From a virus, in IMG/VR virus record IMGVR_UViG_3300042343_001539, positions 43,038 through 107,037 of that record: DNA of 64,000 bases; one strand, written 5' to 3'. The notes below the pieces were generated by a model. That model had not been told where the DNA came from. It was given only the letters and a program-made list of their open reading frames with translations, and made no database searches. Below, piece after piece: positions 6,103-59,514 of the stretch; positions within the stretch are counted from its first letter, which is position 1; every line of letters begins with the position of its first letter. The position numbers were made by a program, and so were the translations under genes.

Positions 6103-6825
6103 ATGGATAATAACACTCATATGATTATCGATAAATTAAATACATTAATGGGTACTAGTACATCCCATATAATTCAAAATACTACTAATGCTTTATATGC
6201 CACCGCAACGTTTACTGATGGGTTAATTTTACTAACCGATAATCCATATAAGTTATATAAAAAAACTGGCGGAACTAAAACTGCAGTAGCTGAACCAACT
6301 AATACTGACGTAGTTAATGCAACCGTTAATATGATGCAGCCTGATGGTTATATAGGCGTAACTATCGATGATATAATAGATCCTACGTGGCCACCGAAAA
6401 TCCCAAATAGTAGAACGTATGTTTGTAATTCATTTACAACATTATTTGGATTAACTGGTATTAAAAAAGGTGAAATTGCCATAATCGGTGATTATACGTA
6501 TTTGTTAATAACGTTTAATTATCGAAATACTGCAGATTGGATCCAATTAAAATCCAGAATAACTGATTTTACTTTAATTTCAGGATTCACTAAAGATAAT
6601 GTTGGTTTGCCAAACGCAGATAATACTTCAGATTTGAATAAACCTATTAGCACGGCGACCCAAACGGCTTTAGGGTTAAAAGCAGATCAAACAGCAATGG
6701 CGACTGCTTTAGGATTAAAATCAGATAAATCAACAACATATACAAAAACCGAAGTCGATTCATTATTGGCAGCAAAACAAACACAAATAACGGCATTGCA
6801 AACAGCGGTAGCTGCATTGCAATAA
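6103..6825 (+). CDS. Phage fibre-type structural protein (240 aa)
   Basis: The C-terminal third holds the widespread tail-fibre segment VGLPNADNTSDLNKPIST (residues about 168-185), followed by TYTKTEVDSLLAAKQ and a helical end ITALQTAVAALQ that looks like a trimerising coiled coil. Residues 100-155 resemble the 'kGDiAiv...tYil...DWiqL' module that recurs many times in the giant fibre downstream. The N-terminal 90 residues are unrecognised and may bind the virion. No clear ribosome binding site precedes ATG 6103, and ATG 6121 is an alternative. It opens the fibre array. A collar or whisker-like short fibre is one possibility; the exact position in the particle is not known. Confidence 0.75.
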   Translation: MDNNTHMIIDKLNTLMGTSTSHIIQNTTNALYATATFTDGLILLTDNPYKLYKKTGGTKTAVAEPTNTDVVNATVNMMQPDGYIGVTIDDIIDPTWPPKIPNSRTYVCNSFTTLFGLTGIKKGEIAIIGDYTYLLITFNYRNTADWIQLKSRITDFTLISGFTKDNVGLPNADNTSDLNKPISTATQTALGLKADQTAMATALGLKSDKSTTYTKTEVDSLLAAKQTQITALQTAVAALQ

Positions 6826-38500: not shown

Positions 38501-40770
38501 CGGCTGCTAATATACCATCATTTAGTGGCGATATAACAAATACCGCCGGATCTGTTAATTTAATATTAACCAATACTGGAGTTACGGCGGGAACATATAA
38601 CTCAGTAACCGTTGATAGTAAAGGTCGTGTTGTTGCTGGTACTACTGAATTGATGTTGACTAATACTGGAGTAGTTCCTGGAGTTTATAATAAAGTAACA
38701 GTCGATGCTCAAGGTAGAATTACTGCAGGTACAACTGAATTAACATTAGATGAAACTGGGGTTGTTCCAGGAACTTATAATACGGTAACAGTTGATGCGA
38801 CTGGTCGTATTACGGCGGGCTTATCGGAACCTACATTATCTGATACTGGAGTCGAACCTGGTTCATATACTTCGGTTATGGTTGATGCTAAAGGTCGGGT
38901 AGTAACAGGCTCAAATCCATCTACTTTAATAGAATATGGTATTACCGATGCATTAACGGCAGTTGATACGACATGGGGTATGTTTACTCAAGCTGTTTTA
39001 CCAGAGGAAACTCTAGGTAATTTAGTTATGGGTGGTGGTGTTAGTTCAGTAAATGGTCATATCGGAGCTGTAAATTTAAACAAATCGGATATTGATTTAG
39101 ATAACATTGATAATACATCTGATTTAGCAAAACCAGTTTCTATACCACAACAAGCGGCATTAAACATTAAACAAGATTTATTAGTTAGTGGAACTAATAT
39201 TAAAACCATTAATGGTCAATCGATATTAGGTGATGGTGATATTACTATATCTGGCGGTAGTGGGGGTGGTTCGTATGTTGATCCGATAACTGGAGAAATT
39301 AATGGTTTAGATTTTGGTGTTTTAATTAATAAACCGACTTCATTATCTGGTTACGGTATATTAGATGCAGCACCATTAAGCCACGTAGCTAATACGAATT
39401 TACATTTAACAACTGCCCAAAAAACATTATTAAGTGGTTTAACCGTTTCTGCAACTGAATTAAATTATACCAGCGGATTGAATGCATCGATTACTTCATT
39501 ATTAAATGCGAAACAATCTACGTTAGTTAGTGGGACCAATATTAAAACAATTAATGGTACTTCTATTGTTGGTGTGGGTGATGTATTTATATCCGGTGGA
39601 TTACAAGCAACTCCGATTAAAACATCTAGTTATACTGCTAATTCAAATGATTTAATTCGAATAAATGCAGTTGGATTACCAGTTATAATTACATTACCAG
39701 CTAATCCAGCTGATGGTGCTAGAATCGGCGTTATTGATATCAGTAATTTATTTGCATCAAATCCAGTTTCGGTTGTTGCTACTGGTAGTAAAACAATTGA
39801 AGATGAAACTTCTATATTATTAGATATTAACGGAACTTATGTAACATTTACTTATATTTTAGCGACTCAAAACTGGAAGTTATTAGAATTACCGGTTAAT
39901 GTAATGAGTACTGATGTTACGGTAGTAAATCAAAATACTGGACCATTTACTACAGTTAATGGATTATCTGGTGAAGTAACTATTAGTAGAGTTACATTAG
40001 ATATTAATAACGTGGATAATATAAAACAATTACCGTATGCTCAAGCAATTCAAGTTTCGGGTGATGTTGTTAGTGATTCTACATTATTAAATTCCGGTTC
40101 TTTAGTTTTAACGTTATCCGATTCTGGTGTAAGCGCTGGTACTTATAATACATCTAATAATTCAATAAGACCAATTACTATTGATAGTAAAGGTAGAATT
40201 ACGTCGGTTGGTGATGCGGTAGAATTACAACCTAATTTTGAGGCAATCACTAACAAGCCATATACCTTAGCCGGATACGGAATTGTTGATGGTGATATTA
40301 GTTATAAATTAAAAACCGCGACAACTGAAGTTGATATTAGTTTAGCTGCGGCTCCAACGGTCGATCAAACATTAGTTGCAACTAGTGCTACATCAGCGGT
40401 ATGGATGGATAGAGCTAGAAATATTATACCGACTGATATTAAAACGGCGAATTATGTTGCATCATCATATGATTTAGTTATAGCTGATTCTAGTGTATCA
40501 TCATTTAATATTACATTACCTGCATCGCCCAATAACGGTACGATTGTTGGTGTAATCGATTTAATGAGAACTTTTGCATCACATCCAGTAACTATATTAC
40601 CTGGCAATGGAGCAGATGTAGAAGATGATACATCTGTCATATTAGATGTAAATAATACATATATTACATTTATTTACATTAGTGCGGCTACAACATGGCG
40701 CATTCAAAATATTCCAGTATCGTATGAAGGTTCTGGTGTCGTTTCTGCAATTGATGGGGGTGGGGCATAA
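23578..40770 (+). CDS. Giant repeat tail-fibre protein (5730 aa)
   Basis: One uninterrupted frame of 17.2 kb, started by ATG 23578 behind GGAG (23564-23567). The N-terminal 60 residues match the 504-aa protein. The body is made of nested fibre modules: 'FDGDV.STT..R.TLTLKE', 'NKKGLVIGG', 'A..GY.GLN..GKID..YLPAIT', 'TIAERDAL...GDVAIV...KTFIL', and 'GGVTSVNGNTGAV'. Larger blocks of about 1.6-2.1 kb recur about five times (roughly 28.1-38.0 kb), and short 'KITYDAKGLVTGSS' units recur in tandem at 31.3-32.2 kb. LAHTH motifs near residues 2018, 2555 and 3689 resemble iron-binding HxH sites. The C-terminus ends SAIDGGGA, beside an Mtd_N-type gene. By analogy with T4 gp34/gp37 it should form a long, thin trimeric fibre. 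Confidence 0.93.
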   Translation: MLSAGLQFIGGAVSSNLILPFTNNLASITPERGSIVYNTGVNPGIYIYNGTTWMDVVPVPDGDPSKIISSNTLPAFTGDVRSVAGSATLLLNDILPDLIGDEATYNSVVVNSKGQIIDGYYYTTLTDMGISDADELLLNKEIIDNKGMPDGYAGLDSDAYLLAENFPGFTGDVVSVPGTNILTLKSLNNASNPLVSITGTYNSVIVNNKGLVIGGTKLDLYTKSEVDFLIGSNVYQLDTQLVNIAGTQTPINYKNSKYAILNNTAAASAKKGDIAVVTAVNTTYVRKQITEDILSDWIELPQRDNGLSGVDITSRLTLDLRLTNTSAGLQIINSANPGRRFSLPAPSTVQTGGPLFIFKNKDITNGFKLFTSTGNFLFDVNSDSTVSVYLAGSTDLDWMFVDHSLKGRELSSNKSANTSLVGTNNVSSDTLYPTQKAVKTYVDNKISDNITSIKGTSITTGGNAPELINAGLATLDKNNLLTIEQLPPQAIAKVYSLPATYDKDGQTYTTSTINYLDALYAYASTNNIEYNIGDTLVIDSLKKTFIVQSVGPVHFLDLPVGVTSVNGRIGAVTIDASDVSTGVFDPSLIPNVTSISSVRNHGPITESLVLTKDSENIQLFSTQTDNLNIKLPAVSSMSAVGVKFIIKNTGFVTEKSIDIKNSANTTLYTLAPNQAVTAILVNKDIDDASSWIVAGYAVPDRFAELDRNKKILAAQLPTFTGDVTSDGTDITIKDAPFYNESYTDEFYGYTKVNRQGLITDVKNRLVTISDINQLPELSDDTFDPDIRYSIADTKLVYTWDGSKYVLVDNLYAAHNYIISTLGADKSHIIKPGSKALLATKGDLVHILSEKKTYYLNSPNSSVLANWVELFANLEGVEFAANKNKIDGYAGLDASGKLDLTQIPAFAYTKVESDAKYADKTLLGDRNTAGGYLGLNLDNKIDSAYLPAITTNNIATVTTIAERDALVASIGDMAIVMGSVNKNYILSATEPNVWTELANPTGGVTSINGNTGVISLTLANISGTLPATALPTFTGDILRANGSAELTIAKLNGIVLDSSFNGTTLPSDGAVFTYSVAGGKATWRPLTINNLSGTLSPTALPALIGDVTSIAGTNNLAINKLNGINLDPAFSDSVLPDDGDVFTFSATGAKATWKPLNASSFTTGTLSINILPAFAGDVSSVAGTNELVISKINGIALDTEFNKDNLPIDGSILTYSSSTSKIAWKAFDASIMVTGTLGIGRLPAFTGDVTSTLGTNTLTLSNTGVVAGTYNSVTVDAKGRVTAGSSFETYSKTEADAKYLLKTALGNRDEAGGYVGLNNAKKIDPSFLPAITLNTSYSVTTLEERDALTTTNIGDIAIVTGDINATYILSNASPKTWTLLSNPLSAGSGFNPDSFVLADIKGNLSAEALPAFTGDVTSVAGTNILTLSNTNAIAGTYNNDASAITPFTVDTKGRIVSVGSPVTIKPHFTDIIGMPASLADFGIGDLYTKAQIDTLITNKLEKNADIVAGSGFKITYDTKGLITGSSDLLLADIPALPADKITSGIIDINRLPANLVFKDESGSIPSSLIPSVSLTSTVTPATTADMTSSTASTGTLAIITNDPDPTKNGSYIKADDGSWKQLSVPTGTVASINGKSGNIEKILPEDIAGLFADDLNKTLLTSKLPLFDGDIVSTANNRNILTLKDIPTITENISYTSVKVNSKGIVIGGIIGDNYNKADIDDKFVTKLSLGEKNAIGGYVSLNLSNAIPAEHLPIFDGDVVSTSFARNTLTLKDMPGLVEGASYSSITVNKKGLVIGGSIGTNYSKEEIDTKFLSKSIAGDRNAPDGFAGLNSDGKIDSAYLPSITLNNIKSVTTIAARDALVAKIGDIAIVSGNINKTYILSSLTPKIWNEMLSPTGGVTSVNGNIGAVTLDLSNLPGNLAMENAPVYTTGDVITNVDTHELSLNTIDGLAAGTYSKVTVNNKGLVIAATQLTLADIPDLSWDKIKLNKPTTLAEFGITDVVSASDVRLTDSRTPLAHTHAIADIIDLRSELDSKMIGNPTIIAKTGFKISYDAKGLVTSSSELTLADIPELSADKITSGLIDVNRLPTNVVLMDSNGNLPSNLIPTVSLTGTITVASYAAMIGSTSSAVGTAAIVTSDPDPSKNGTYIKAAGNIWRTLVTPTNTVLSINSKFGHIGKITPDDISGVFADDANKTILPSKLPDFDGDVISSTSSKNTLLLKEIPGLSENVSYSSVRVNSKGLVISGIVGDNYTKTEIDSKFIPKTALGERNIAGGYAGLNPSNTIDADQLPAFEGDVISSASHKNVLTLKEVPGLIENINYASVKVNSKGIVIGGIVGENYTKDEIDSKFLLKSVSGDKNAAGGFVGLNSSLKIDPAYLPAITLNSIKAVTTIAERDLLSVRVGDVAIVAGSVNKTFILADTSPKTWIEMLNPVGGVASVNGNTGAVVLDLSNLSGTLSIDKLPAFTTGDVITNSTTKELELKTIGGLIAGTYSKVTINNKGLVTNASQLSASDIPDLSWDKIINKPTTLAEFGVGDVVLTTDVRLNNAREPLAHTHTISNILGLQDTLDNVLSKNIDITPNTATKVTYDNKGLITGSESLAAADIPNLDISKITGLQDTLTLLQTSSSTGLAKNADIVAGVGTKISYDIKGLVTGSSNLTATDIPTLPINKISGLQLAFDDKVTKNANIPAGSGFKITYDAKGLVTGSSNLTSLDIPLLSINQVDGLQASLDTKLTKPSQITAGSGTKITFNADGLVTSGTAMTDADLPNLAISKITGLQSALDNKLTKNVNVIAGTGVKITYDAKGLVTGSSILTSTDIPTLPSTKISGLQNILDSVMYANVPITSGTAAKITYDEKGLVTAGTSLIASDIPDLNISQITGLQDALSGGATADLLNTAIDALKDNVAAEGDTLKKLYDLIVASFKEITVADTAARDAFDVKTLPTNLFVSDDGDGHWALYKATSTGIGATFIKLSDPDLLNSSIGFNPENVINKSADTTLGGLTPDDIKYPTQKAVKAYVDTTITTSNIDVNQLPTSVVLLDGTGKIPNSLLPPVSLTGSTITPASYTAMVATTATTGTLAIVTADSDPTKNGSYIKLADGSWQKLSVTSSSVNSINGKTGNITKILPEDIAGVFADDANKTLLSSKLPIFDGDVISTTGARSTLTLKEIESITENVAYSSVILNKKGLVIGGTIGASTDAYTKVESDGKYVTILALGSKNANNGYAGLSATGLLDNSVLPVFDGDVISTTNAKTTLTLKDIETITENVAYSSVILNKKGLVVGGTIGASTDAYTKVESDGKYVLKTVVGVRNTSGGFAGLDANGVLNNEQLPLFDGDVINSSESRNILVLKDMVGLATGTSFTSVTVNSKGLVIGGTIGEVYTRADAEAAFISKIEAGDKNAPSGYLGLNSSGKIEANFLPLFTGDVVSSANARNVLTLPEIDGLVEGIKYSSITVNKKGLVVGGTRGEVYSKDEADLAFASKLVLGDRNAADGFIGLNSNGKIDPAYLPAITLNSVQTVTTIAERDALSVRVGDVAIVVGNINKTFILSSIDPITWIEMVNPLGGVTSVNGNTGDINLSLSNLPGVISHEKLPAYTSGDVITNTTTNNLELATINGLVAGSYSKVTINEKGLVTATSQLTLADIPNLSWDKITLNKPTTLAEFGIIDVVSSNDPRFTDARAPLAHTHIIDDITGLQSALDGKLIGNTAIVAGTGFKISYDAKGLVTSSSDLTLADIPELSASKITTGVIDVNRLPTNVVLTDANGNLPSNLIPAISLTNTITPASYAAMSSATATTGTLAIVTDDADLTKNGSYIKLADGSWKKMTVPSNTVASINGKTGNIEKILPEDIAGVFDIDANKTLLSSKLPIFDGDVISTTESRNTLTLKEISGLTENVAYSSVILNKKGLVIGGIVGENYTKAESDAKYLAKNDLTGDFVTSINGKKGTITKIEADDIAGVFNSDSNKTLLVSKLPIFDGDVISTTDSRNTLTLKEISGLTANVSYSSVILNKKGLVVGGIVGENYSKSETNDKFLSLAISGNRNAPSGFVGLNTAGKIEPSYLPAITLNNIKTVTTLEDRDALFVALNDVVIVSSLSKTFILTSNTPKTWNELLSPAGGVSSVNGNTGAVTVDLSNIPGTLPLDKLPTYTLGDVITNTTTKELELKTLSNLTPGQYTKVSVNNKGLIVSASQLTATDIPNISWNKITLDKPTTLAGFGIAEQYATLINNKIPYDLLNRDVIEGDALPAIGEANKIYVNKTTNTTHRWDGAAFVQIGGGGGSANNLTGVLNLSLIPDLSINKITGLQTALDGKLSKNAAISAGTGIKVTYDTNGLIVSSSGLLASDIPDLNASKITAGIIDINRLPTNIVLTDESGKLPASLIPSVTLTNTVTPATTADMTSSTADTGTLAIITNDPDPTKNGSYIKMDDGSWTQVTTPTDTVASINGKTGIISKILPEDIAGVFEPDANKTLLTSKLPLFDGDVVSTTNSRNTLTLKEISGLIDNATYTSIRVNKKGLVIGGTIGEVYSKTDTDAKFVTNISLGSKNTAGGYAGLSVNGTIELNQLPIFNGDVISTANARGTLSLKEIGGLTENVNYSSVRINKKGLVIGGTIGENYSKTDTDAKFVTKLSLGSKNTAGGYVGLNLNSKIDLTYLPSMTTNNVIPVATLDDRDALSANIGDVAIVAAVNKTFILADTAPMTWMEMLNPTGGVTSVNGNMGAVTIDLSNIPGTLSASKLPAYTTGDVITNTETGELVLSPITGLTAGAYAKVVINEKGLVIGSSALTAADIPDLSWDKITTGKPSTAADFGLTDIISTSRLPIDDNGIDKLVTVGSDGKINSLLLPSLAISDTYTFFASTATKDDIIAVGSSALNAQQGDIAIVGGDAKATYILTSNTPNILTDWVQLQTPEGGVISINGQKGTLILDYAAIDNASTNIVTAGSYNKVTVNTKGRITAVNNESYAVLTNNLLAAANIPSFSGDITNTAGSVNLILTNTGVTAGTYNSVTVDSKGRVVAGTTELMLTNTGVVPGVYNKVTVDAQGRITAGTTELTLDETGVVPGTYNTVTVDATGRITAGLSEPTLSDTGVEPGSYTSVMVDAKGRVVTGSNPSTLIEYGITDALTAVDTTWGMFTQAVLPEETLGNLVMGGGVSSVNGHIGAVNLNKSDIDLDNIDNTSDLAKPVSIPQQAALNIKQDLLVSGTNIKTINGQSILGDGDITISGGSGGGSYVDPITGEINGLDFGVLINKPTSLSGYGILDAAPLSHVANTNLHLTTAQKTLLSGLTVSATELNYTSGLNASITSLLNAKQSTLVSGTNIKTINGTSIVGVGDVFISGGLQATPIKTSSYTANSNDLIRINAVGLPVIITLPANPADGARIGVIDISNLFASNPVSVVATGSKTIEDETSILLDINGTYVTFTYILATQNWKLLELPVNVMSTDVTVVNQNTGPFTTVNGLSGEVTISRVTLDINNVDNIKQLPYAQAIQVSGDVVSDSTLLNSGSLVLTLSDSGVSAGTYNTSNNSIRPITIDSKGRITSVGDAVELQPNFEAITNKPYTLAGYGIVDGDISYKLKTATTEVDISLAAAPTVDQTLVATSATSAVWMDRARNIIPTDIKTANYVASSYDLVIADSSVSSFNITLPASPNNGTIVGVIDLMRTFASHPVTILPGNGADVEDDTSVILDVNNTYITFIYISAATTWRIQNIPVSYEGSGVVSAIDGGGA
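28090..38000 (+). repeat. Long-period internal repeats of the giant fibre gene
   Basis: Super-modules begin near 28090, 29715, 32650, 34730 and 36540. Each has the order 'TYD.KGL', 'NRLP.N', 'NGSYIK..DGSW', 'SINGK.G', 'FDGDV', 'NKKGLV', 'TIAERD', 'SVNGN.GAV' and 'SWDKI'. Stretches of DNA are near-identical, for instance around 'aacaaaaaaggtttagtaat'. Boundaries are approximate because they were judged from recurring protein motifs by eye. Confidence 0.75.
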
Positions 40771-41335: not shown

Positions 41336-43956
41336 GTGTTCGGAAAATAATACAGGGGGCTGGGGCGATATCGACTCCTGCTGCACCAGCGCCATTATAT
41401 GTTGATGATGTTTTTTCGACTTATTTATACACCGGTGCTGCAGCATCACAAACCATCAATAATGGTATCAATTTAACTGGAATTTCTGCCGGTGGTACTA
41501 TATTACATATAACTGGGAATACCCTTTTCGACTCAGCACCAAATGCAAATAAACTAAACGTATTCGGTAACGTAGCAGTTAATACAACAACTAAAATGTT
41601 TGGTACCGGCTCATTATCGTTTGATGGGGCTGGAGACTATATAACTTCAGATTACAATAGTTCATTAAATGTAGGTAGTGGTAATTTTACTTTAGAATTT
41701 TGGATGTATATTAATGTTCTCCCAACAGCATGGAAGCGCGTTTTTTCGATTATGAATCCGGCTATCGCCGTCGCGGCAGATGAAGGTATCATTATTGAAA
41801 TATCTAATACGAATAAACTAGCGGTGGTGATTACTAGCGGTTCGACTGCTTATAATATAACCGACCCGACAATAGCTACTGCGACTACGTGGACCCATTG
41901 GGCTATGGTCAAATCAGGAACCACAATGACGTTATATCGGGGTGGAGTATCGGTCGGGTCAGTTACTATACCAGCCAATACTTCAGTAAATTTTAACTCA
42001 GCATTTCGGATGTATTTGGGCCGATGGCCAGGTGATACAGCCAGAGATTTTAATGGATATATTGATGATTTAAGGTTGGTCGTCGGAACTGCGAAATATA
42101 CTGGTAATTTTACACCTCCAGTAACAGCATTACCATTAGATTCATTAGCTTCTGGTGGTGGATTGGTATGGGTAAAGGCTAGAACTGTTGGTGGTGATAA
42201 CTTATTAGTCGATAATATACGAGGGGCAAATAACGTATTGATAAGTTCATCGACTGGTGCTGAGATTGCAAACTACGCATCAATTACTTCATTAACCACT
42301 AGTGGATTTACATTAGATAGTACTAACAATAGTAATTATAATGGGAATATTCTTCCTTATGTTTCGTGGTCTTTCCGCAAAGCACCTAAGTTTTTTGATA
42401 CGGTTACGTATACTGGAGATGGAACTACTGGTAGACTAATTAGCCATTCACTCGGGATTAATCCCGGTATGATTATTATTAAAAGCACATCGACTACGGG
42501 AGATTGGCTTGTAGCTCACCGGTCTTACGGCGGACTTTCGGGAGAGGTAGCCGGCTATAACTTAACACTTAATACGAATGTGGGTGGAGGTAGTTGGCTT
42601 ATCAGTAATACCGGGATCCCAGCGTCACCTAGCACCGTATTCAAAGTAGATAATCTAGGTGCAAATAACACTGGAACAACCTACGTAGCCTACCTATTTG
42701 CGCACGATACATCTAGCACTGGGTTAATACAGTGCGGATCTTATACTACTGACGCTAGCGGTATAGCATCGGTTAATTTAGGTTGGGAACCGCAATTTTT
42801 AATTTCTAAATCTGCTACTGGGACATCAAATTGGTGGATTGGTGATATAATGCGAGGTATGACGGCAGATAAATCAACCACATACTTATCAGCAAACACA
42901 TCCAACGCTGAAGCGACGAGTACGCTGTACGGCGTTACAAGTTCCGGGTTTAATGCGGCAGCTCAAAATGCATCACAAACATATATGTTCGTAGCTATCC
43001 GTAGATCAACCAAACCACCAACTAGTGGTAATAATGTTTTTAGTGCTCAGTCTTATACTGGAACTAGTACCGCTAGATCATTTACTGGTATTGGGTTTTC
43101 GCCGGATATGATATATTATAGAGATAAGGCATTAGACTGGGGTTCTGGTGTAGGTGATCGATTACGTGGGAGCACTAATTTAAGTTTTGAAAATGATGGT
43201 GCTGAGTATTCATCGAATACAACATATACATCATTCGATATTGATGGATTTAGTATTGGAACTGGATTAAATGCATTTTTTAATTGGGGTTCTCATATAG
43301 GATCTGGATGTAATTTTAAACGGGCTACTGGTTTTTTTGATATAGTGTGTTATACCGGAACTGGTACTGGAGTGAATCAATTACACAACTTAGGTGTTAT
43401 ACCCGAATTATGTATATTTAAAACGAGGAGTGTAGTTGGTGATTGGGTCGTTTTAATTCGGAAATCCGACGGTAATTATATATACGGTAGTACGTTGGTT
43501 GCTGATAAATTTGCTTTAAATTCAGTAAATCCATTAACTTTTACATCCAGTGCGTCGGGACTCGGATTAACAGCATCAAACTTTACTACATTATCGCTAT
43601 ATAATACTTTAAACGCCAAATACATTGCGTATTTTTTCTCATCTTTAGCTGGTATTAGTAAAGTTGGTTCGTATTTAGGTAACGGTTCAACTCAAACTAT
43701 TAATTGTGGTTTTGCTGCTGGTGCTCGATTTATTATTATAAAATGCGCTAGTTCCGCAGGCGATTGGTACTCTTGGGATTATAGTAGAGGTATTATTGGA
43801 GCGAATGATCCGCATATGTCATTAAATTCTACGGCTGCCGAAATCACGACTGATGATTCAATCGACCCGGATAATTCCGGATTTATAGTAAACCAAGTCG
43901 CTGCGACTAATATTAATGTTACTTCAGCGACTTACGTTTATTTAGCTATATCATAG
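41332..43956 (+). CDS. LamG plus DUF7483-like fibre protein (874 aa)
   Basis: Residues about 80-260 are a LamG/concanavalin-like lectin domain (SLSFDGAGDYITSDYNS, FTLEFWMYI, GYIDDLRLVVGTAKYTG). From about 350 to the end are five related repeats of about 105 residues, near 353, 463, 567, 667 and 775. Each has a 'Y.G.G......H.LG..P.MIIIK.....DW....R' pattern that I place in the DUF7483 group of phage structural proteins. Lectin-like domains suggest binding to host surface sugars. It starts in an ATGA overlap with the Mtd_N-type gene, so the two are translationally coupled. It ends seven bases before the tail-chaperone-like gene. Codon use in 42400-43000 is less AT-rich than its neighbours. Confidence 0.83.
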   Translation: MSVRKIIQGAGAISTPAAPAPLYVDDVFSTYLYTGAAASQTINNGINLTGISAGGTILHITGNTLFDSAPNANKLNVFGNVAVNTTTKMFGTGSLSFDGAGDYITSDYNSSLNVGSGNFTLEFWMYINVLPTAWKRVFSIMNPAIAVAADEGIIIEISNTNKLAVVITSGSTAYNITDPTIATATTWTHWAMVKSGTTMTLYRGGVSVGSVTIPANTSVNFNSAFRMYLGRWPGDTARDFNGYIDDLRLVVGTAKYTGNFTPPVTALPLDSLASGGGLVWVKARTVGGDNLLVDNIRGANNVLISSSTGAEIANYASITSLTTSGFTLDSTNNSNYNGNILPYVSWSFRKAPKFFDTVTYTGDGTTGRLISHSLGINPGMIIIKSTSTTGDWLVAHRSYGGLSGEVAGYNLTLNTNVGGGSWLISNTGIPASPSTVFKVDNLGANNTGTTYVAYLFAHDTSSTGLIQCGSYTTDASGIASVNLGWEPQFLISKSATGTSNWWIGDIMRGMTADKSTTYLSANTSNAEATSTLYGVTSSGFNAAAQNASQTYMFVAIRRSTKPPTSGNNVFSAQSYTGTSTARSFTGIGFSPDMIYYRDKALDWGSGVGDRLRGSTNLSFENDGAEYSSNTTYTSFDIDGFSIGTGLNAFFNWGSHIGSGCNFKRATGFFDIVCYTGTGTGVNQLHNLGVIPELCIFKTRSVVGDWVVLIRKSDGNYIYGSTLVADKFALNSVNPLTFTSSASGLGLTASNFTTLSLYNTLNAKYIAYFFSSLAGISKVGSYLGNGSTQTINCGFAAGARFIIIKCASSAGDWYSWDYSRGIIGANDPHMSLNSTAAEITTDDSIDPDNSGFIVNQVAATNINVTSATYVYLAIS

Positions 43957-50146: not shown

Positions 50147-52480
50147 ATGGCGAGTAAATACGGCGGTCGAATATTATCTGCAATAACACCAACAACAGTA
50201 GGTGGTTCTTATACTAGTTCCGCTGGTGGGATGTGGGATTTAGTTGCTCAATCTCAAGCAAAAAAAGCTTTGATATGGCCTAAAGGGTCAGTACCCCCAT
50301 CGAGACCAACTATAGGAACAGTAACTTTAGTAAATAGTACTGCGACGGTCCCGTTTACTGGATCTGCGGATCTTGGAGCCAATGTATTAACTCAATATAA
50401 TTTAATATGTTCAGATGGTCAAACCTTTTCTTCAAATACTTCGCCATTTACTGTTAATTTAACTCAAAATATCGTTTATACTTTCGCAGTTAATGGGTCT
50501 AATATCTCGGGCATGGGGGAAAGTAGTGTTAGTCCACCCATAATGAGATTAGGGACACCTACACCAAATACACCAGTATTTGGTAATAGTCAGGTTTCGG
50601 TTCATTTTACTCGAAATGATTCTAATTTATCAGGATTACCAACTACTTATACGGTTACTTCATCTCCCGGTAATATGACCGCTACTGGGACATCATCACC
50701 AATTACCGTAACTGGTTTAACTAATGGTACAGCTTATACCTTTACTATAAAAGCAGCTAATGATTACGGTGAAAGTTTAGTTAGTGGTTCGAGTAGTAGT
50801 ATGATTCCGGCTGCGGTACCAAGTGCTCCTACTATTGGGGCAGTAGTAGGTGGAAATAAATTCGCGACAGTTCCGTTTACATTTTCAACTAATAATAATG
50901 GTGATGTAATTAGTAGTTATACCGTAACTTCTAATCCGGGTGGTATAACTGCATCCGGAACTACTTCGCCAATTACAGTAACTGGACTAAACGTAGATTT
51001 AAATTATACATTCACTATCGTAGCGAATAATAAAGCCGGGGCTAGTTTACCTAGTTCGGCTAGCAATAGTATTAGACCGGCATTAGTTCCAAGTCAACCA
51101 ACTAGTGTTACTGCAGCTTATGGTTATTCAACTTCAACTAACGTCTCATTTAATGCGCCGGATAATGGTGGTTATCCAATCACACAATATACGGTAACGT
51201 CAAGTCCTGGAAATATAACAGCTACTGGTGCATCATCCCCAATTACGGTAACCGGATTAACTAATAATACTGCATATACATTTACTGTAAAAGCTACTAA
51301 TATTTTAGGAACTGGTTCGACTAGTTCTGCGAGCAATAGTATTAAACCCGGAACGCCTAGTGCACCATACCTATCATCAGTTGTTTATAGTAGTGGGACG
51401 ACCGCAACCATTAATTTTTCAGTTCCTGGGTTAAATGGTGGGTCTGCTATTACCGGATATATAGTTACTAGATCGGATGGTGCTACAGTTTCTGGGACAG
51501 CATCACCGTTAGTTATGGCAAATAATTTCGTTGATGGTACCTTATATACCTTTACTGTAGCTGCGATAAATGCCGTTGGTACTGGTGCTGCGAGTAATAC
51601 TAGCTCGCAAGGAAGTCCAAAAATATCAGTAAATATCACATATAGTTCGGCTACTGCTAATTTAACTATTAATGACTCAATTATTACTAACGCGGCATAC
51701 GGATTAGGATGGGATGGTGTCGTTCCGATATTATGTACGATTACGAATAATACTACCATCTACAGTACAGGCACCAGTTCTTATGCATTAACTATTGCTC
51801 CCAATATTCCAGCTTCTAGAAACCTTAAATTCATAAACAATGGTTATATCCTTGGTATGGGTGGTAATGGTGGTAATAGTGGCGGTCAAGCTAGTCCGGC
51901 TAATGGTTATATGGGCGGGCCAGCATTAAACGTTCAATCAAATGTAATATTTGTAAATAATAGTATTATAGCCGGGGGTGGTGGGGGTGGTGGTTCTGGT
52001 GGTTCATGGTACGCAGCATCTTGGGGTAGTAATGGGCATTCACCTTCTGGTGGGGGTGGTGGTGGTCGAGGTAATGATCAAGCTCTGTCGACTGGTGGTT
52101 ATGGATCTCAATGGTATAGTGATTCCCGTAGTTGGAGTACGGCTGGTGGTTCTGGTGGTTTTAGTTCGGGTGGTAATGGTGGTAACGGCGGCTTAGCGTA
52201 TGGTCGTGAAAGTTGGCCAAATGGTTATACTGGTGGGGCTGGCTATAATACATATGGTAGTGGTGGAGGAGGTTCTGGCGGTTCTGGTGGTACATTCTCG
52301 GGCGCGATTCCTGGAGGGGGTGGTGGGGGTGGTGGTGCTTGGGGATCCGCTGGGGGTACTGGCGGTGCATCTGGTCATGGTGATGGTGGTGGTGGTGGGG
52401 GTGCTGGCGGTGTTGCTATTTCTGGGAATGTTTATATTACCTGGGCAGCAACCGGTTCTAGATACGGAGCTATCCAATAA
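50147..52480 (+). CDS. FN3 adhesin with Gly-rich gp38-like tip (777 aa)
   Basis: The first 45 residues (YGGRILSAITPTTVGGSYTS, MWDLVAQSQAKKALIWPKG) match those of the 776-aa protein at 57184 and are probably an attachment domain. Residues about 48-490 are five fibronectin type III domains with the repeated 'SSPITVTGLTNGTAYTFT.KA.N..G' strand. Residues 495-600 contain an 'N.G.I.G.GG.GG' beta-helix-like lead-in. Residues 605-770 are very glycine-rich, with short variable loops (ASWGSNGHSP, TFSGAIP, ATGSRYGAIQ). Polyglycine bundles with variable loops form the receptor-binding adhesin gp38 of T-even phages, so this is likely a host-range tip. The stop overlaps the next start by one base. Confidence 0.85.
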   Translation: MASKYGGRILSAITPTTVGGSYTSSAGGMWDLVAQSQAKKALIWPKGSVPPSRPTIGTVTLVNSTATVPFTGSADLGANVLTQYNLICSDGQTFSSNTSPFTVNLTQNIVYTFAVNGSNISGMGESSVSPPIMRLGTPTPNTPVFGNSQVSVHFTRNDSNLSGLPTTYTVTSSPGNMTATGTSSPITVTGLTNGTAYTFTIKAANDYGESLVSGSSSSMIPAAVPSAPTIGAVVGGNKFATVPFTFSTNNNGDVISSYTVTSNPGGITASGTTSPITVTGLNVDLNYTFTIVANNKAGASLPSSASNSIRPALVPSQPTSVTAAYGYSTSTNVSFNAPDNGGYPITQYTVTSSPGNITATGASSPITVTGLTNNTAYTFTVKATNILGTGSTSSASNSIKPGTPSAPYLSSVVYSSGTTATINFSVPGLNGGSAITGYIVTRSDGATVSGTASPLVMANNFVDGTLYTFTVAAINAVGTGAASNTSSQGSPKISVNITYSSATANLTINDSIITNAAYGLGWDGVVPILCTITNNTTIYSTGTSSYALTIAPNIPASRNLKFINNGYILGMGGNGGNSGGQASPANGYMGGPALNVQSNVIFVNNSIIAGGGGGGGSGGSWYAASWGSNGHSPSGGGGGGRGNDQALSTGGYGSQWYSDSRSWSTAGGSGGFSSGGNGGNGGLAYGRESWPNGYTGGAGYNTYGSGGGGSGGSGGTFSGAIPGGGGGGGGAWGSAGGTGGASGHGDGGGGGGAGGVAISGNVYITWAATGSRYGAIQ

Positions 52481-52839: not shown

Positions 52840-53337
52840 ATGACTACACTAATCAATAGAACGACCCCCAATTATTCAATACCAGTACCCAGTATTTCAA
52901 ATCGCATAGTTGACGATATTCCTCGATTAATTAATGCATTATATACTATTGATGGGTTATTATTTGCAAAACAAGATAAAAATTCTAGTACTAGTACATC
53001 AAATATATTAGATAGTAATGGTATATTACGCCTATCTAAATTACCGGCATTTCAAGGTGATGTTACTTCGACTGCCGGAACTTCGACTTTAATATTATCG
53101 AATACTGGCGTCGTACCGGGAGCTTATAATAAAGTAACCGTCGATGCTAAAGGTCGCGTTACTGCCGGCTCAAATGAAGCAGTTCCATTAAAAACAATTA
53201 ATGGTACCTCTTTATATGGAGAAGGAAATATTTTAGTTTCTGGTGGGGGTGGTGGTAGTGCGGGCGGTAATCTCGACGGAGGTGGCCCATTTTCAAATTA
53301 TGGTGGATTATCAGCAGTTGATGGAGGCAGTATTTAA
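52840..53337 (+). CDS. Fibre protein ending in GGGGS-type tail (165 aa)
   Basis: ATG 52840 is preferred to the in-frame TTG 52828. After an N-terminal segment (residues 1-45) come fibre modules seen in the giant protein: LPAFQGDVTSTAGTSTLILS, TGVVPGAYNKVTVDAKGRV, KTINGTSLYGEGNILVSG. A Gly-rich end finishes SAVDGGSI, almost the same as the SAIDGGGA end of the 5730-aa fibre. Both are followed at once by an Mtd_N-type gene, here with a one-base stop/start overlap (TAATG). This looks like a tiny replica of the giant fibre and its partner. Confidence 0.8.
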   Translation: MTTLINRTTPNYSIPVPSISNRIVDDIPRLINALYTIDGLLFAKQDKNSSTSTSNILDSNGILRLSKLPAFQGDVTSTAGTSTLILSNTGVVPGAYNKVTVDAKGRVTAGSNEAVPLKTINGTSLYGEGNILVSGGGGGSAGGNLDGGGPFSNYGGLSAVDGGSI

Positions 53338-54254
53338 TGGCAAGTATTATACAATTACGCAGAGGTACCGCACTAGAATGGGCTACGGCTAATCCAGTAT
53401 TAGCTGAAGGTGAATTATGTGTAGAGTTAGATACCAGTAAATGTAAAGTAGGAAATGGCGTTCAACATTGGAATGACTTATCTTATTCTATTGGTGCGAA
53501 TGGTGCGAATGGCCAAAATGGCCAAAATGGGGCTGCGGGTAGAGATGGTGTTGATGGTGTTGATGGTATTGATGGTATGCCTGGTCCTATGGGTCCTATG
53601 GGCGGTACAGTAAGTGCATCCAGTAGACTAAATATAATCGGATCTATAAAACCATTAGTTAGTACTAGTCGTTGGTATCCAATGAAAACAGTATCTATCA
53701 TTGGTTTATCAGCTAATGTCGGTAAGCCGTCTACTACCAAAATTGAATTAGTTGTTCGTCGAAATGGTGCGTTATTGCAAACTATGGTTATTTTACCAAA
53801 TCAATATAAATCACAAAACTATTCAAATTTAACTTATGCATTAGGTATTAATGATTATCTAACATTAGATATTGTTTCGGCTGATGGCGTTGCTTCGAAT
53901 TTAAATTTAGTTATTGAATATTTTCCGCATGATAATATTACATTAACTGCATCTAGACTAAATTTTATCGGCCCAATTACTCCTATAATTGGTTCTTCTA
54001 GATGGTATCCGAGTCGAGTAATTACATTAAGACAAGTTCATTTAACCGTAGGTTCAAAATCGATTTCATCAATATTTGTTGATATTTTATTAAATGGTGT
54101 TGTTATCTTGAGTTTAAATATAGATGACAATCAATATCGATCAATCACATTAACAGATTTAAATACAGTAATTAACGAATCGGATTATATTACTGCGAAT
54201 ATCACTGCGGCTGTTGATGGTAGGAATTTATCGGTAGTTTTAGAATATACTTAA
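53337..54254 (+). CDS. Mtd_N plus collagen-like fibre protein (305 aa)
   Basis: Residues 4-50 (IIQLRRGTALEWATANPVLA, GELCVELDT, WNDLSY) form the Mtd_N-type N-terminal domain. Residues about 53-92 are 13 Gly-X-Y triplets (GQNGQNGAAGRDGVDGVDG, then GMPGPMGPMGG), a collagen-like triple helix as in many phage fibres. The rest consists of two tandem repeats of about 105 residues (about 97-200 and 203-305). Each starts 'ASRLN.IG.I.P....SRWYP' and contains 'V.LNG...L.....NQYRS', probably trimeric beta domains at the tip. The gene overlaps its partner by one base. A receptor-binding or short tail fibre role is likely. Confidence 0.87.
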   Translation: MASIIQLRRGTALEWATANPVLAEGELCVELDTSKCKVGNGVQHWNDLSYSIGANGANGQNGQNGAAGRDGVDGVDGIDGMPGPMGPMGGTVSASSRLNIIGSIKPLVSTSRWYPMKTVSIIGLSANVGKPSTTKIELVVRRNGALLQTMVILPNQYKSQNYSNLTYALGINDYLTLDIVSADGVASNLNLVIEYFPHDNITLTASRLNFIGPITPIIGSSRWYPSRVITLRQVHLTVGSKSISSIFVDILLNGVVILSLNIDDNQYRSITLTDLNTVINESDYITANITAAVDGRNLSVVLEYT

Positions 54255-54413: not shown

Positions 54414-56456
54414 ATGGCTTTAATAATTTCCGCGCCCGGCGCAGATACAGTACAGATTACCACGACTAATTCCGGTGGTGTCTATAGTACATTTACGGAG
54501 CTAGCTCAAGCGGTTGCTGATGCAGTTACTGGTGTAGCTCCAGTAGCTACTACTGGATGGACAGTATATGATACGTTTACCAGTGGCATTATCTACACTC
54601 AAGTTTTTCGCGCCTTAAATAAAGACGGAACTACTTATAAAAATGCTATTTTCCGTTGGAATACTATCAGTTGCGAACTTAATATAAGTACGTGCGAACT
54701 TTGGGATATTATAAATCATATCCCACAAAATGAAGCATGGACTTACTATGATAGTTCACCAATTCCTTATCGTCTAGATGCAACTGATTTATTATTATTC
54801 ATCAATCCTCGTTGGTTAGCTGCTCATTCTTATATGGCGAATGAACCAACTTGTTGGGCCGGCGTTTTTGAAATGGAACGCGAAGATGTTGCTGATACTG
54901 GTGGATTTCCATGTTGGGGGTGGATTTCGTCTAGTTTATGGATGTTAGGTGCTACATCATTAGGTGCAGTTCCGATCCAAGGTGGTGGTAATACGTTAAT
55001 ATCAATTCCTCGCACAAGAGCTGGCGCAACTGGTTTTGCAGCATCTAGAACTATTGCTTGCGATTATGGGGTTGCACAATACCCAAATGTTTTATCTACC
55101 ACCGCCGCAGCATTTATCTATTATATCGGAAACCAAGTTAATAAATACGTTTCTAATAGCTGGGATACTTCTAAACGTTTAGTGATGCCATTAAAACCAT
55201 CATTTGAATTTACTAGTTCTTATGTTTCGAATTATGGTCAAATATACGGACTTAAAGTAATTAGTCCGGCCGGCAATAATATGAATAAAATTCAAGTAAA
55301 TGTGAATAGTGATGGTAATTACTCACCGTCGGGAACATTAACTGATCATTGGATTTTAAATAATCATTATAAACCTTGCCAAAATCAAACATCGGCTTGG
55401 TTTACTAATACTAATTTAGTAATGAGTGCATACCCAGTTGGTTTTAGACCTCAATATTTTACATCTACTGGTTCTAGTTATTATATAACCGCAGGTGATC
55501 AAGGTAATAATCTTACGAAAGTAAATATTTTAACTGGCGTGTATGTTAATATAAAAACAGATAGACAATATTATGATGTTAAATATGATGGTGAACGTTA
55601 TGTTTATGCTTCATCATCTGCTGGATTAACTCGTATTGATACTAGAGATGATACGACTACTGATTTATCAGTCGGGGCTGGTGGTATTTACGCATTCGAT
55701 ATTAATGCTACTCATTTAGTTTGCGCTCAGTATACATCTTCAGCTACACCTATTATTTGGAGAGTTTTAAGAACTACTTTTGCGGTTGATTCATCTAATG
55801 GTAGTATTACTTTAGCGACATTTAACGAATCGGTTCGTATCTCATGTATTACTATGGATATGGCGGGTAATGCGCATTTAGTCGCTCCTGTTGCTACTGC
55901 CGCGAACTTTAAAGTTTGTAAAATTCTCGCCGCTACGCCAGCATCACCAATATATCAATTAAATAATTTTTCAGTATCGACTAATGCTGGTATTATGATG
56001 ATTAATGAATATACTATGTTGGTAATTACTCATCTTACTAGTGGGGCGACGTATATGTATACCTATCACCCATTAACTCTAGCGTTAGTTAGTACTAACT
56101 TAACAGTTGGAACTAACCCTGCCATGACGGTGAATTTTTATAAACCGTCGATGATTAAGATTTCGGGTACTATTATGTCTATGGGTAGATCGAATACTAC
56201 GACGGCATATGGATATATGACGAATTTAGGAACCAATTCGGCGACAACTACTTGGACTCCTATTACTCCAATTCAAACTGGTGATATGTATAGTACCACT
56301 GGTAATATTAGTGGCGTTTCTTCTATGGCGGCTATGTATTGGGATGGGGCGCGTATGGTTGGTATATATGATTCTGGTTTACGTGTATTTTCCGGTATTA
56401 ATGGTAATAACGTCCAATCTTCAGTAACTGTTGGTCAGACCTTATTGCCGATATGA
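54414..56456 (+). CDS. Large virion-associated protein with propeller-like C-half (680 aa)
   Basis: TTGGAG lies eight bases before ATG 54414. Residues 1-330 form a mixed domain rich in Trp and Cys (NTISCELNISTCELWDI, ADTGGFPCWGWISSSLW) that I do not recognise. Residues about 340-680 look like a beta-propeller, with repeats such as TKVNILTGVYVNIKTD, YDVKYDGERYVYASS, LTRIDTRDDTT and MYWDGARMVGIYDSG. No signal peptide or membrane segment is present. Placement among fibre genes, and its own late promoter, suggest a structural protein of the tail or fibre system. An enzymatic propeller such as a lyase cannot be excluded. The stop overlaps the next start (ATGA). Confidence 0.72.
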   Translation: MALIISAPGADTVQITTTNSGGVYSTFTELAQAVADAVTGVAPVATTGWTVYDTFTSGIIYTQVFRALNKDGTTYKNAIFRWNTISCELNISTCELWDIINHIPQNEAWTYYDSSPIPYRLDATDLLLFINPRWLAAHSYMANEPTCWAGVFEMEREDVADTGGFPCWGWISSSLWMLGATSLGAVPIQGGGNTLISIPRTRAGATGFAASRTIACDYGVAQYPNVLSTTAAAFIYYIGNQVNKYVSNSWDTSKRLVMPLKPSFEFTSSYVSNYGQIYGLKVISPAGNNMNKIQVNVNSDGNYSPSGTLTDHWILNNHYKPCQNQTSAWFTNTNLVMSAYPVGFRPQYFTSTGSSYYITAGDQGNNLTKVNILTGVYVNIKTDRQYYDVKYDGERYVYASSSAGLTRIDTRDDTTTDLSVGAGGIYAFDINATHLVCAQYTSSATPIIWRVLRTTFAVDSSNGSITLATFNESVRISCITMDMAGNAHLVAPVATAANFKVCKILAATPASPIYQLNNFSVSTNAGIMMINEYTMLVITHLTSGATYMYTYHPLTLALVSTNLTVGTNPAMTVNFYKPSMIKISGTIMSMGRSNTTTAYGYMTNLGTNSATTTWTPITPIQTGDMYSTTGNISGVSSMAAMYWDGARMVGIYDSGLRVFSGINGNNVQSSVTVGQTLLPI

Positions 56457-56878
56457 TAGCTAATATGAACACTAGAGTATCGCTGGTAATTAGTGGGTTT
56501 GTTTTACCAATTCTCGGTAAAACGGATCAAACAATTTCCAGATTAACTAAAATCACTAGCGTTCTATTACCGAAATTTTCTAGCACCAAGAGTGTCGGTA
56601 AACCGACACTCTTGGTGACGACCGGTTTTAAAGTACCTATGGTCGGTAAATCAAGAAAAGTAGAGTCTAGTTTAAGTGGTATCATGTTATGGAATCCGAA
56701 AGGTACTAACGGTATTAAATCTATGCCGCTGGTCGGGGTTCCTCGAGCAACAATATCCGAAAAAACTATAACTACTGGCTTTTTATTACCAAAAACGTCT
56801 GGTATTCAAGTAATTAAATGGCTTGATGCAGCTAGACCAAACGTACAAATAGAACAAATAATTCAATTTTGGAGTTAA
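56453..56878 (+). CDS. Hypothetical basic 141-aa protein
   Basis: ATG 56453 overlaps the upstream TGA (ATGA), a junction type used repeatedly here; ATG 56465 is an alternative. The product has a short repeated motif, '(V/T)(T/S)GF.(L/V)P..GK' (SGFVLPILGKT, TTGFKVPMVGKS, TTGFLLPKTSG), and ends IEQIIQFWS. It is basic, with almost no Asp or Glu in the first 120 residues. A perfect inverted repeat lies inside the gene (56584-56617). No family was recognised. Confidence 0.65.
   Translation: MIANMNTRVSLVISGFVLPILGKTDQTISRLTKITSVLLPKFSSTKSVGKPTLLVTTGFKVPMVGKSRKVESSLSGIMLWNPKGTNGIKSMPLVGVPRATISEKTITTGFLLPKTSGIQVIKWLDAARPNVQIEQIIQFWS
56584..56617. repeat. Perfect 16-bp inverted repeat inside a gene
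   Basis: Arms CACCAAGAGTGTCGGT (56584-56599) and ACCGACACTCTTGGTG (56602-56617) are exact complements with only two bases (AA) between. It is richer in GC than the surroundings, lies within a coding frame and has no T-run after it, so it is not a standard terminator. On DNA it could extrude a cruciform; on RNA it would form a very stable stem. Confidence 0.95.
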
Positions 56879-57183: not shown

Positions 57184-59514
57184 ATGAGTAATCGATACTT
57201 CGGTGGGATAATATCCGCTACTAAAATAACGACATCTGGGACTACATATACTGGCTCAGCTAGTGGTATATGGAATTTAGTTCAGCAAGCTCGACAAAAA
57301 CAGTTAAATGCTTGGCCTAAAGGTAAAGGTATATCAGAACCATTGGATCCGCCCGTAAGTTCAGTAACGGCGGGAAATGAGGTGGCTACTATTGCATTTA
57401 CTGCACCTCAGGATAATGGTGGAGATGCAGTAATTGGTTATATCGCTACTGCGAATCCGGGTAATATAACGTCGACTGCTGCTACATCTCCAATTACTAT
57501 ATACGGATTAACTAACGATCAAATCTATTATATAAGTGTTGCTGCTACTAATTCTTTCGGTAGTACTTTAAAATCGACTCCATATCCAATTACACCAACT
57601 AATACATTAGGAACTACGATTCCGAGTAAACCAACTAATGTATCAGCGAGTGTTGGTGGTGGTTATGCACTAATAACATTTACTACTCCTTCTAGTATTG
57701 GTAGTTCTGCTATTAGTAGCTATCGGGTAATATCGTCACCAGATGGATTAGTTAATACTGGTACTACCACTTCAATACCAATATACGGTTTAGTTCCTGG
57801 AAAATCATATACATTTAGAGTTATTGCTATCAATACCCAAGGTTCTAGTGCGCCTAGTTTACCAAGTAATAGTGTAATTCCAACTTTACCGGGTAAGCCA
57901 TCAAGTCCGACTATAACATCTGCGGTTTTTGGTAATACTCAAGCTACGATTTACTTCAATCCGTCAGCCGATTTAGGTGGATCTGCTTGCACATACACAA
58001 TTACTTCATCACCTAGTGGAAAAACTGCAAGTGGGTTATCATCACCTATTATAGTTACTGGATTAATAAATGGGGTGACCTATACTTTTACTATGACTGC
58101 TGCTAATTCTATTGGTATAAGTGATAAAAGTAATGTTAGTAGCTTTGTTGTTCCAGCAACTATACCTAGTACACCGGTTATTACGTCTGTGACTGCGGGC
58201 GATTCTCAGATTAACGTATTCTTTAGAATCCCGATAAATGGCGGTAGTATTATTTCTAATTATCGGGTAACTAGTTCCGGTGGTCAAATAGCTAATGGTA
58301 CGACCTCACCAATTACAGTAACCGGATTAACCAATAATACATCATATACGTTTACTATGCTTGCGACTAATGCGATTGGTAATAGTCTTGTTAGTAATAC
58401 TAGTTTAAGTATCAAACCGGTCGGTGCTCCGCCTGTTCCGCCAATAGCTTATGCAACATCAATTAATAGTTCAACTACCCAATCATTTGTTTTAAATTGG
58501 GATACAAATTCTGGTTATACATATACGGTTTGGAGTACTGGCGGTCAAGTTTCTGGCGTAACCACATCCGGATCTACTATATTATATCAATACGGAACAA
58601 CGATATTAGAGCCGGATAGTTCATATACCTTTTATGTAAGAGCAACTAATGCTTACGGTTCAGTTTATTCTAATTCAGTAAGTGTTACTATTCCAAAAGC
58701 GGCTGTCGCATTAAATATTACTGGGACGTCGGTTCCATTAGTAATAAATAGTACTTGGGCTGCAAATCAAGGTTGGTCATTAGCAAATCAAGCTAAACCA
58801 GCAGAAGTCACCATTAATATAACGGGTACTTGTACATCACAGTATTATAATACTTCATCAACCTATAACACAAATTCAAATTATTCCACGTATACATTAA
58901 TGATTCAGTTAACTGGATTACATGCCAGTTCGACTATTACGATTAATGTAAATAGTGAGATCCGCGGTATTTACGCTGATTATGCATATTATTATGATTC
59001 TGGTTGGTGGAGAAGAAGTGGTTATGATGGTGGTCCGGCATTATATATTGCATGCAATAAAAATGTTACTTTATATAACTATAGTACTATTGGTGGAGCT
59101 GGGGGTGGTGGTGGTGTTGGTGGGGCTGGATTAAATGCACCTGAGCCTGGTGATGGTGGAGCTGGTGGTAGAGGCGGGAATGCTTTAATAATTCAACCTG
59201 GCTATACGACTACTATTTACAATTACGGTAATTTAGTTGGTGGTGGCGGCGGAGGGGGTGGTGGTTCTGGTGGTTCTGGAGCTGGTATTCCTCGAGGTGG
59301 CACAACTTCAAATAATTATAGTGGGGGTGCTGGTGGTCAAGGTTCTGGTGGTGCTGCCGGTGGTTCTGGTGGGGGCTGGGGTGGTTATGGAACTCAGGGT
59401 TCTCAGGGATATTATGCTACCGGTGGTGCGGGTGGGGCTCCTGGGTCATATATAGTAAATGGTAGTTACGCATCCTGGGCTGTTACCGGTAATAGATATG
59501 GTAATGCCGGATAA
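57184..59514 (+). CDS. FN3 adhesin with Gly-rich gp38-like tip (776 aa), paralogue
   Basis: This has the same architecture as the gene at 50147: an N-terminal unit (RYFGGIISATKITTSGTTYT, IWNLVQQARQKQLNAWPKG), about five FN3 domains (about 50-515) with 'SPITVTGLTNNTSYTFTM.ATN', a lead-in domain (about 515-630), and a glycine-rich tip (about 630-765) ending VTGNRYGNAG. The FN3 domains and N-terminus are clearly related between the two, while the loops of the tips differ (IRGIYADYAYYYDSGWWRRS is present only here). This suggests two adhesins with different receptor specificity. An AGG lies before ATG 57184. The upstream gap has TATAAAATA, a one-base variant of the late motif, about 45 bases before the start. 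Confidence 0.85.
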   Translation: MSNRYFGGIISATKITTSGTTYTGSASGIWNLVQQARQKQLNAWPKGKGISEPLDPPVSSVTAGNEVATIAFTAPQDNGGDAVIGYIATANPGNITSTAATSPITIYGLTNDQIYYISVAATNSFGSTLKSTPYPITPTNTLGTTIPSKPTNVSASVGGGYALITFTTPSSIGSSAISSYRVISSPDGLVNTGTTTSIPIYGLVPGKSYTFRVIAINTQGSSAPSLPSNSVIPTLPGKPSSPTITSAVFGNTQATIYFNPSADLGGSACTYTITSSPSGKTASGLSSPIIVTGLINGVTYTFTMTAANSIGISDKSNVSSFVVPATIPSTPVITSVTAGDSQINVFFRIPINGGSIISNYRVTSSGGQIANGTTSPITVTGLTNNTSYTFTMLATNAIGNSLVSNTSLSIKPVGAPPVPPIAYATSINSSTTQSFVLNWDTNSGYTYTVWSTGGQVSGVTTSGSTILYQYGTTILEPDSSYTFYVRATNAYGSVYSNSVSVTIPKAAVALNITGTSVPLVINSTWAANQGWSLANQAKPAEVTINITGTCTSQYYNTSSTYNTNSNYSTYTLMIQLTGLHASSTITINVNSEIRGIYADYAYYYDSGWWRRSGYDGGPALYIACNKNVTLYNYSTIGGAGGGGGVGGAGLNAPEPGDGGAGGRGGNALIIQPGYTTTIYNYGNLVGGGGGGGGGSGGSGAGIPRGGTTSNNYSGGAGGQGSGGAAGGSGGGWGGYGTQGSQGYYATGGAGGAPGSYIVNGSYASWAVTGNRYGNAG

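Follow-up and report, generated by a model that had tools for sequence, protein, structure and literature searches.

A perfect coding palindrome and a neighbouring micro-inversion in one jumbo-phage gene suggest polymerase template switching

The window analysed here is a 64,000-nt stretch of DNA, bases 43038 to 107037 of a 107,037-bp viral contig that represents an incomplete genome. The contig belongs to a jumbo myovirus, an uncultured giant phage. Its major capsid protein has a match in the T4-type head protein family (PHROG 138) and shares 56% identity with its counterpart in the Xanthomonas jumbo phage XacN1. The locus of interest lies among tail and adhesin-like genes, which encode an Mtd N-terminal domain with collagen-like repeats (53337-54254), FN3 domains, gp38-like domains and a tail assembly chaperone. 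Two similar FN3-repeat genes with glycine-rich gp38-like adhesin domains at their ends (50147-52480 and 57184-59514) flank the Mtd N-terminal domain gene and the gene described below. Elsewhere, the window holds a single 5,730-aa ORF of the long tail-fibre type with many internal repeats (23578-40770). The features at the locus, in window positions, are as follows:

56453 to 56878, plus strand: ORF of 141 codons, whose 141-aa product has imperfect repeats of about 21 aa and an LPxxGK motif
56501 to 56508, plus strand: left 8-bp arm of a second inverted repeat, GTTTTACC
56509 to 56515, no strand assigned: 7-bp spacer AATTCTC; both other contigs of this phage have it inverted (GAGAATT)
56516 to 56523, plus strand: right 8-bp arm of the second inverted repeat, GGTAAAAC
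56584 to 56599, plus strand: left arm of the perfect palindrome, CACCAAGAGTGTCGGT
56600 to 56601, no strand assigned: two-base centre AA, the same in all three contigs
56602 to 56617, plus strand: right arm of the perfect palindrome, ACCGACACTCTTGGTG

The 141-codon ORF overlaps a 680-aa upstream ORF by ATGA. Its product is probably a tail protein, a reading based on its neighbours. The protein had no match in Pfam or PHROGs, and no relative of the gene was found in the phage collection by DNA or protein searches. Likewise, searches of viral contigs, phage records and 84,980 bacterial and archaeal genomes yielded no divergent homologue. One weak hit (G022, E = 0.018) was set aside as unrelated in view of its surroundings. 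Among 42 records, most of them found via the capsid protein, the only carriers of the gene were two near-identical contigs.

The palindrome, CACCAAGAGTGTCGGT-AA-ACCGACACTCTTGGTG, occupies 34 bases, and its arms are 100% complementary. It lies entirely within the ORF and is translated as ...S-TKSVGKPTLLV-T, so that the description in the initial annotation of a perfect 16-bp inverted repeat with a two-base centre, whose codons still fit the frame, was correct. The AA centre and the base after it form the codon AAA (Lys); a flip of the centre to TT would give TTA (Leu). No perfect short-loop repeat in the contig is longer than this one, and one other equals it. That second palindrome with 16-bp arms lies outside the window at contig positions 11719-11750 (AGAGATGTAGTTTTAA/TTAAAACTACATCTCT); it is AT-rich, is outside any ORF of at least 60 aa and is not a T-tailed terminator. 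A perfect palindrome with 18-bp arms and no centre, TATAATACATCATTATAATTATAATGATGTATTATA, was also seen outside ORFs at bases 1302-1337 of a contig of the same phage species, IMGVR_UViG_3300043775_001972.

Could such a repeat be accidental? Short repeats present in two copies can be, and many windows were read. However, from base composition the expected number of perfect 16-bp arms with a loop of 0-10 bases is 0.0006 per 64 kb, and no repeat of at least 15 bp appeared in 20 second-order Markov simulations of the 107-kb contig. The longest repeat in 300 synonymous shuffles of the 141-aa gene was 12 bp. These figures bear out the earlier view that chance is a very unlikely source. In a 572-kb scan, made up of the phage's own contig and related jumbo phages with mechanically chosen ORFs, perfect repeats of 13-15 bp occurred occasionally deep inside ORFs in the related phages, and no other 16-bp repeat was found there. 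The alternative suspicion, an artefact of assembly or library preparation, is very unlikely because the palindrome recurs unchanged in two further IMG/VR contigs of this phage; its presence in three separately deposited contigs refutes an artefact unless these contigs share reads. Overall, we give very little weight to chance or artefact as the origin of the palindrome.

A separate family of hairpins was seen in a related jumbo phage, in bases 120001-140000 of IMGVR_UViG_3300050150_000084. Its members lie, approximately, at positions 6166-6230, 7177-7241, 7472-7536, 8607-8671 and 8877-8941 of that section, with further copies at about 9713-9777, 10256-10320, 12812-12876 and 19084-19148. The arms vary between copies and mostly stay complementary. 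Each hairpin is directly followed by an invariant GTCAACTG, often GGTCAACTGGTCA, and the loop side often contains TATC or ATAAT. These hairpins may be a promoter, processing or terminator element that compensatory change maintains.

We then consider what the palindrome might do as a nucleic-acid signal. Downstream of it lie ACGACCGGTTTT on the plus strand and CTAGAAAATTTC on the minus strand. No T-run follows the repeat on either strand, in line with the absence of a T-run in the initial annotation, and an intrinsic terminator, which would need its GC-rich stem to be followed immediately by a T-run, was rejected on the same grounds. A functional mRNA stem, acting in stability, ribosome pausing or processing, would fit the predicted fold of the transcript, which reaches −31 kcal/mol for 81 nt (z = −5.8 against dinucleotide shuffles) and contains a 15-bp stem with a UAAA loop. 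However, equally good folding is expected of any perfect palindrome of this length. The stem is also more than 100 bases from either gene end, it has no terminator features, and no Rfam match covers the palindrome. The earlier suggestion of an RNA-stability stem gained no support beyond the strong predicted fold, and we consider a functional mRNA stem improbable.

The copy number and distribution of the palindrome bear on whether it is a mobile element or a DNA site. A search for the arms elsewhere, which the initial annotation had proposed as a check, found no second copy of either arm in the 64,000-nt window, even allowing three mismatches, and the 34-mer occurs once in the 107-kb contig. 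The unchanged 34-mer is present in IMGVR_UViG_3300020513_000208 and IMGVR_UViG_3300043775_001972, both of which are 99.9% identical to the window; the names of the three contigs suggest different metagenomes. Viral contigs outside this phage did not contain the palindrome, the 84,980 bacterial and archaeal genomes contained no relative of it, and two scans with the DNA flanks for variant forms of the site returned the same two contigs only. A mobile or repetitive palindromic element was rejected on this distribution (single copy, 0 of 84,980 genomes, viral hits confined to the same phage).

A functional DNA site, bound by a dimeric protein or cut by a site-specific recombinase acting at the two-base centre, would account for the full two-fold symmetry around that centre, and 34 bp is a common length of recombinase sites. 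Selection on the DNA would also fit the poor codon usage described below. Against this, the site is single-copy and falls midway along a coding gene, no palindrome-bounded segment is inverted in the other contigs, and neither a partner site nor a rearrangement at the palindrome was found between contigs. Members of the tyrosine (PF00589, Phage_integrase) and serine (PF00239, Resolvase) recombinase families are absent from the phage's own and same-phage contigs, which cover an incomplete genome. The earlier proposal of a recombination site or a mobile-element trace gained no support, given the single copy, the empty genome search and the lack of these recombinases in the available contigs; nor did that of a protein-binding site, and nothing points to a packaging or replication signal. 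The palindrome is not a genome end, since contig 3300043775_001972 continues past the end of the window. We regard a functional DNA site as quite unlikely.

A recognition hairpin of a diversity-generating retroelement (DGR) acting on a tail gene was also considered, as an Mtd N-terminal domain gene lies nearby and a hairpin after the variable repeat is typical of DGR targets (PMC3240598). In phage DGR targets these stems are 7-10 bp and GC-rich, with GRNA loops (PMC3240598), whereas the palindrome here forms a 15-bp stem with a TAAA loop. The resemblance to the Bordetella phage BPP-1 DGR hairpin (PMC3240598) is that of a hairpin near a phage tropism gene cluster, and the two differ in stem length, loop and position. 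Furthermore, no reverse transcriptase (PF00078) was detected in the phage's own and same-phage contigs, the available sequence has no template-repeat-like copy of the region, and the difference between strains is an exact inversion rather than an adenine-specific change. A DGR target is largely refuted for the available part of the genome, and we think it extremely unlikely.

Codon usage sets the palindrome apart from the rest of the gene. The right-arm codons CCG ACA CTC TTG GTG rank in the lowest 0.02% of the window's 5-codon stretches, and the three lowest-scoring of these stretches all overlap this arm. Such codons are what copying of the right arm from the wrong strand would be expected to leave. 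GC-richness and uncommon codons (lowest 1.4%) are also seen in the left arm. Over both arms together, stretches of 11 and 14 codons rank last in codon usage among about 19,000 in the window, and GC content is 53% in the palindrome stretch versus 35% in the rest of the gene. A codon test of which arm was copied gave only small likelihood ratios, about 1.7 for left versus right as the source and about 4 for copying versus neither. Elsewhere in the window, a rare-codon stretch second only to the palindrome lies in an 874-aa DUF7483/laminin-G gene (42500-42930).

The codon usage and GC content over both arms would also fit a captured non-coding hairpin, such as an old terminator or a small palindromic element that was inserted or fused into the frame and is now translated. 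A native coding source does not require the left arm to be GC-rich or rich in uncommon codons, which counts against simple copying, and this atypical left arm leaves some probability to a captured hairpin or a selected DNA site. However, the LP motifs over the palindrome's repeat unit are spaced by 22 residues, compared with 21 in two comparable neighbours as read in the protein, and so there is no obvious insertion. In addition, the palindrome has no A-run or T-run, and no other copy exists in the contig or, beyond this phage, in the viral contigs and 84,980 genomes searched. We regard a captured hairpin as unlikely.

The second inverted repeat of the gene starts 83 bp upstream of the start of the palindrome, and it differs between strains. 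The window reads GTTTTACC-AATTCTC-GGTAAAAC, whereas both other contigs read GTTTTACC-GAGAATT-GGTAAAAC. At 56501-56523 the spacer is thus an exact reverse complement between close relatives, the 8-bp arms are unchanged and the frame is kept; the protein has Ile-Leu in the window and Arg-Ile in both other contigs. In about 177 kb of same-phage alignments, this micro-inversion at 56509-56515 is the one difference other than 4 SNPs. No micro-inversion was seen in control alignments of related jumbo phages (about 377 kb, with pairs partly overlapping), where four substitutions clustered within 19 bp turned out on manual checking not to match an inversion. The 107-kb contig contains 44 perfect repeats with arms of at least 8 bp and spacers of 2-8 bp, which makes the place of the micro-inversion near the palindrome noteworthy, single event though it is. 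The comparison of contigs argues strongly that the micro-inversion is a template-switch event, and we infer that a switching polymerase made it rather than an enzyme such as an unrecognised recombinase. Neither a tyrosine or serine recombinase nor a reverse transcriptase turned up in the available sequence, which favours template switching.

Template switching is known to leave two products, spacer inversion and arm homogenisation, and the palindrome can be read as a footprint of the second. Template switching, which the initial annotation did not name, fits better than the candidates given there because a second hairpin in the same gene shows the spacer inversion between strains. We lean towards the view that a polymerase, switching template at a shorter inverted repeat in a variable gene of the tail cluster, produced the palindrome, and we hold this rather probable. 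The steps would be as follows. During copying of the gene, the nascent strand would have paired with itself or with the other strand via a pre-existing short repeat, whose proposed core, CGGT-AA-ACCG, can still be seen. It would then have copied about 12 bases of one arm as the reverse complement before returning to its own template. Both arms would thereby have been made identical, which is known as arm homogenisation or quasi-palindrome correction. Such a change would have left the reading frame intact, and the protein would have tolerated the altered residues. Likewise, switching within the upstream hairpin's arms would have inverted its 7-bp spacer in one of this phage's lineages. For the palindrome itself, the relatives found are all near-identical and all carry the perfect form of 56584-56617; because no divergent homologue with the pre-event sequence was found, its origin is a reconstruction. 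We infer that the palindrome is most likely the trace left by a slip in DNA copying, with no dedicated function, rather than a dedicated signal or mobile element. As a recombination site, captured hairpin, RNA element or retroelement target it is less supported.

Template switching between short inverted repeats in coding DNA is known to cause arm homogenisation or spacer inversion (PMC8604942). In yeast, a single event at REG2 converted a 5-bp arm into a 16-bp perfect arm, SPO75 has 11-bp arms around an AA/TT two-base centre with a Lys/Leu switch, and spacer inversions were seen only with arms longer than 9 bp (PMC8604942). The phage gene resembles these Saccharomyces cerevisiae genes in that coding DNA carries an exact spacer reverse complement with unchanged arms. 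It shares with SPO75 a two-base AA centre in a Lys codon and the same Lys/Leu pair (here AAA to TTA), and with REG2 the 16-bp arm. Unlike the yeast cases, both footprints here are in one gene of a phage, and the inverted spacer is longer (7 bp) and its arms shorter (8 bp). These arms fall below the yeast range for spacer inversion, which counts against the template-switch reading. Quasi-palindrome-associated mutations are described for phage T4 rIIB, yeast CYC1 and E. coli thyA by Ripley 1982 and Dutra and Lovett 2006, as cited in PMC7202029, and on the same citation of Ripley 1982 the mechanism was first recognised partly in T4 rIIB. The likeness lies in an inverted repeat made perfect or longer and, given the T4-type capsid protein, in the T4-type phage context; here, however, the ancestral imperfect repeat is a reconstruction. 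Coding palindromes are also numerous, and up to 284 bp long, in conserved mitochondrial genes of Nematomorpha (PMC6649704). Those too are perfect inverted repeats inside translated genes, whereas the present palindrome is single and short, and its gene has no known relatives. The mechanism is already known, and this case is a further example rather than a new kind of process.

A more ambitious reading is that the 141-aa gene is a built-in variation cassette, in which the LPxxGK repeats are coded as TACC...GGTA stems around short spacers. If so, the spacers would flip by template switching above the point-mutation rate, so that surface residues would switch with no recombinase involved; the palindrome's AA centre would toggle between Lys and Leu, and selection would keep the hairpins as a hypermutable device. 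Repeats of 6 to 8 bp were not enriched in the whole gene relative to synonymous shuffles, which speaks against a general hairpin-rich design. We consider a cassette of this kind doubtful.

The linked micro-inversion is more interesting than the palindrome because it is directly testable: the population frequencies of both spacer orientations can be measured in existing metagenome reads. It documents a hairpin-loop micro-inversion in a natural and otherwise near-clonal jumbo-phage population, beside a perfect coding palindrome in the same gene. If this pattern is repeated elsewhere, phage tail genes would gain multi-residue changes through template switching, and SNP-based population studies would misread such flips as clusters of substitutions or as positive selection.
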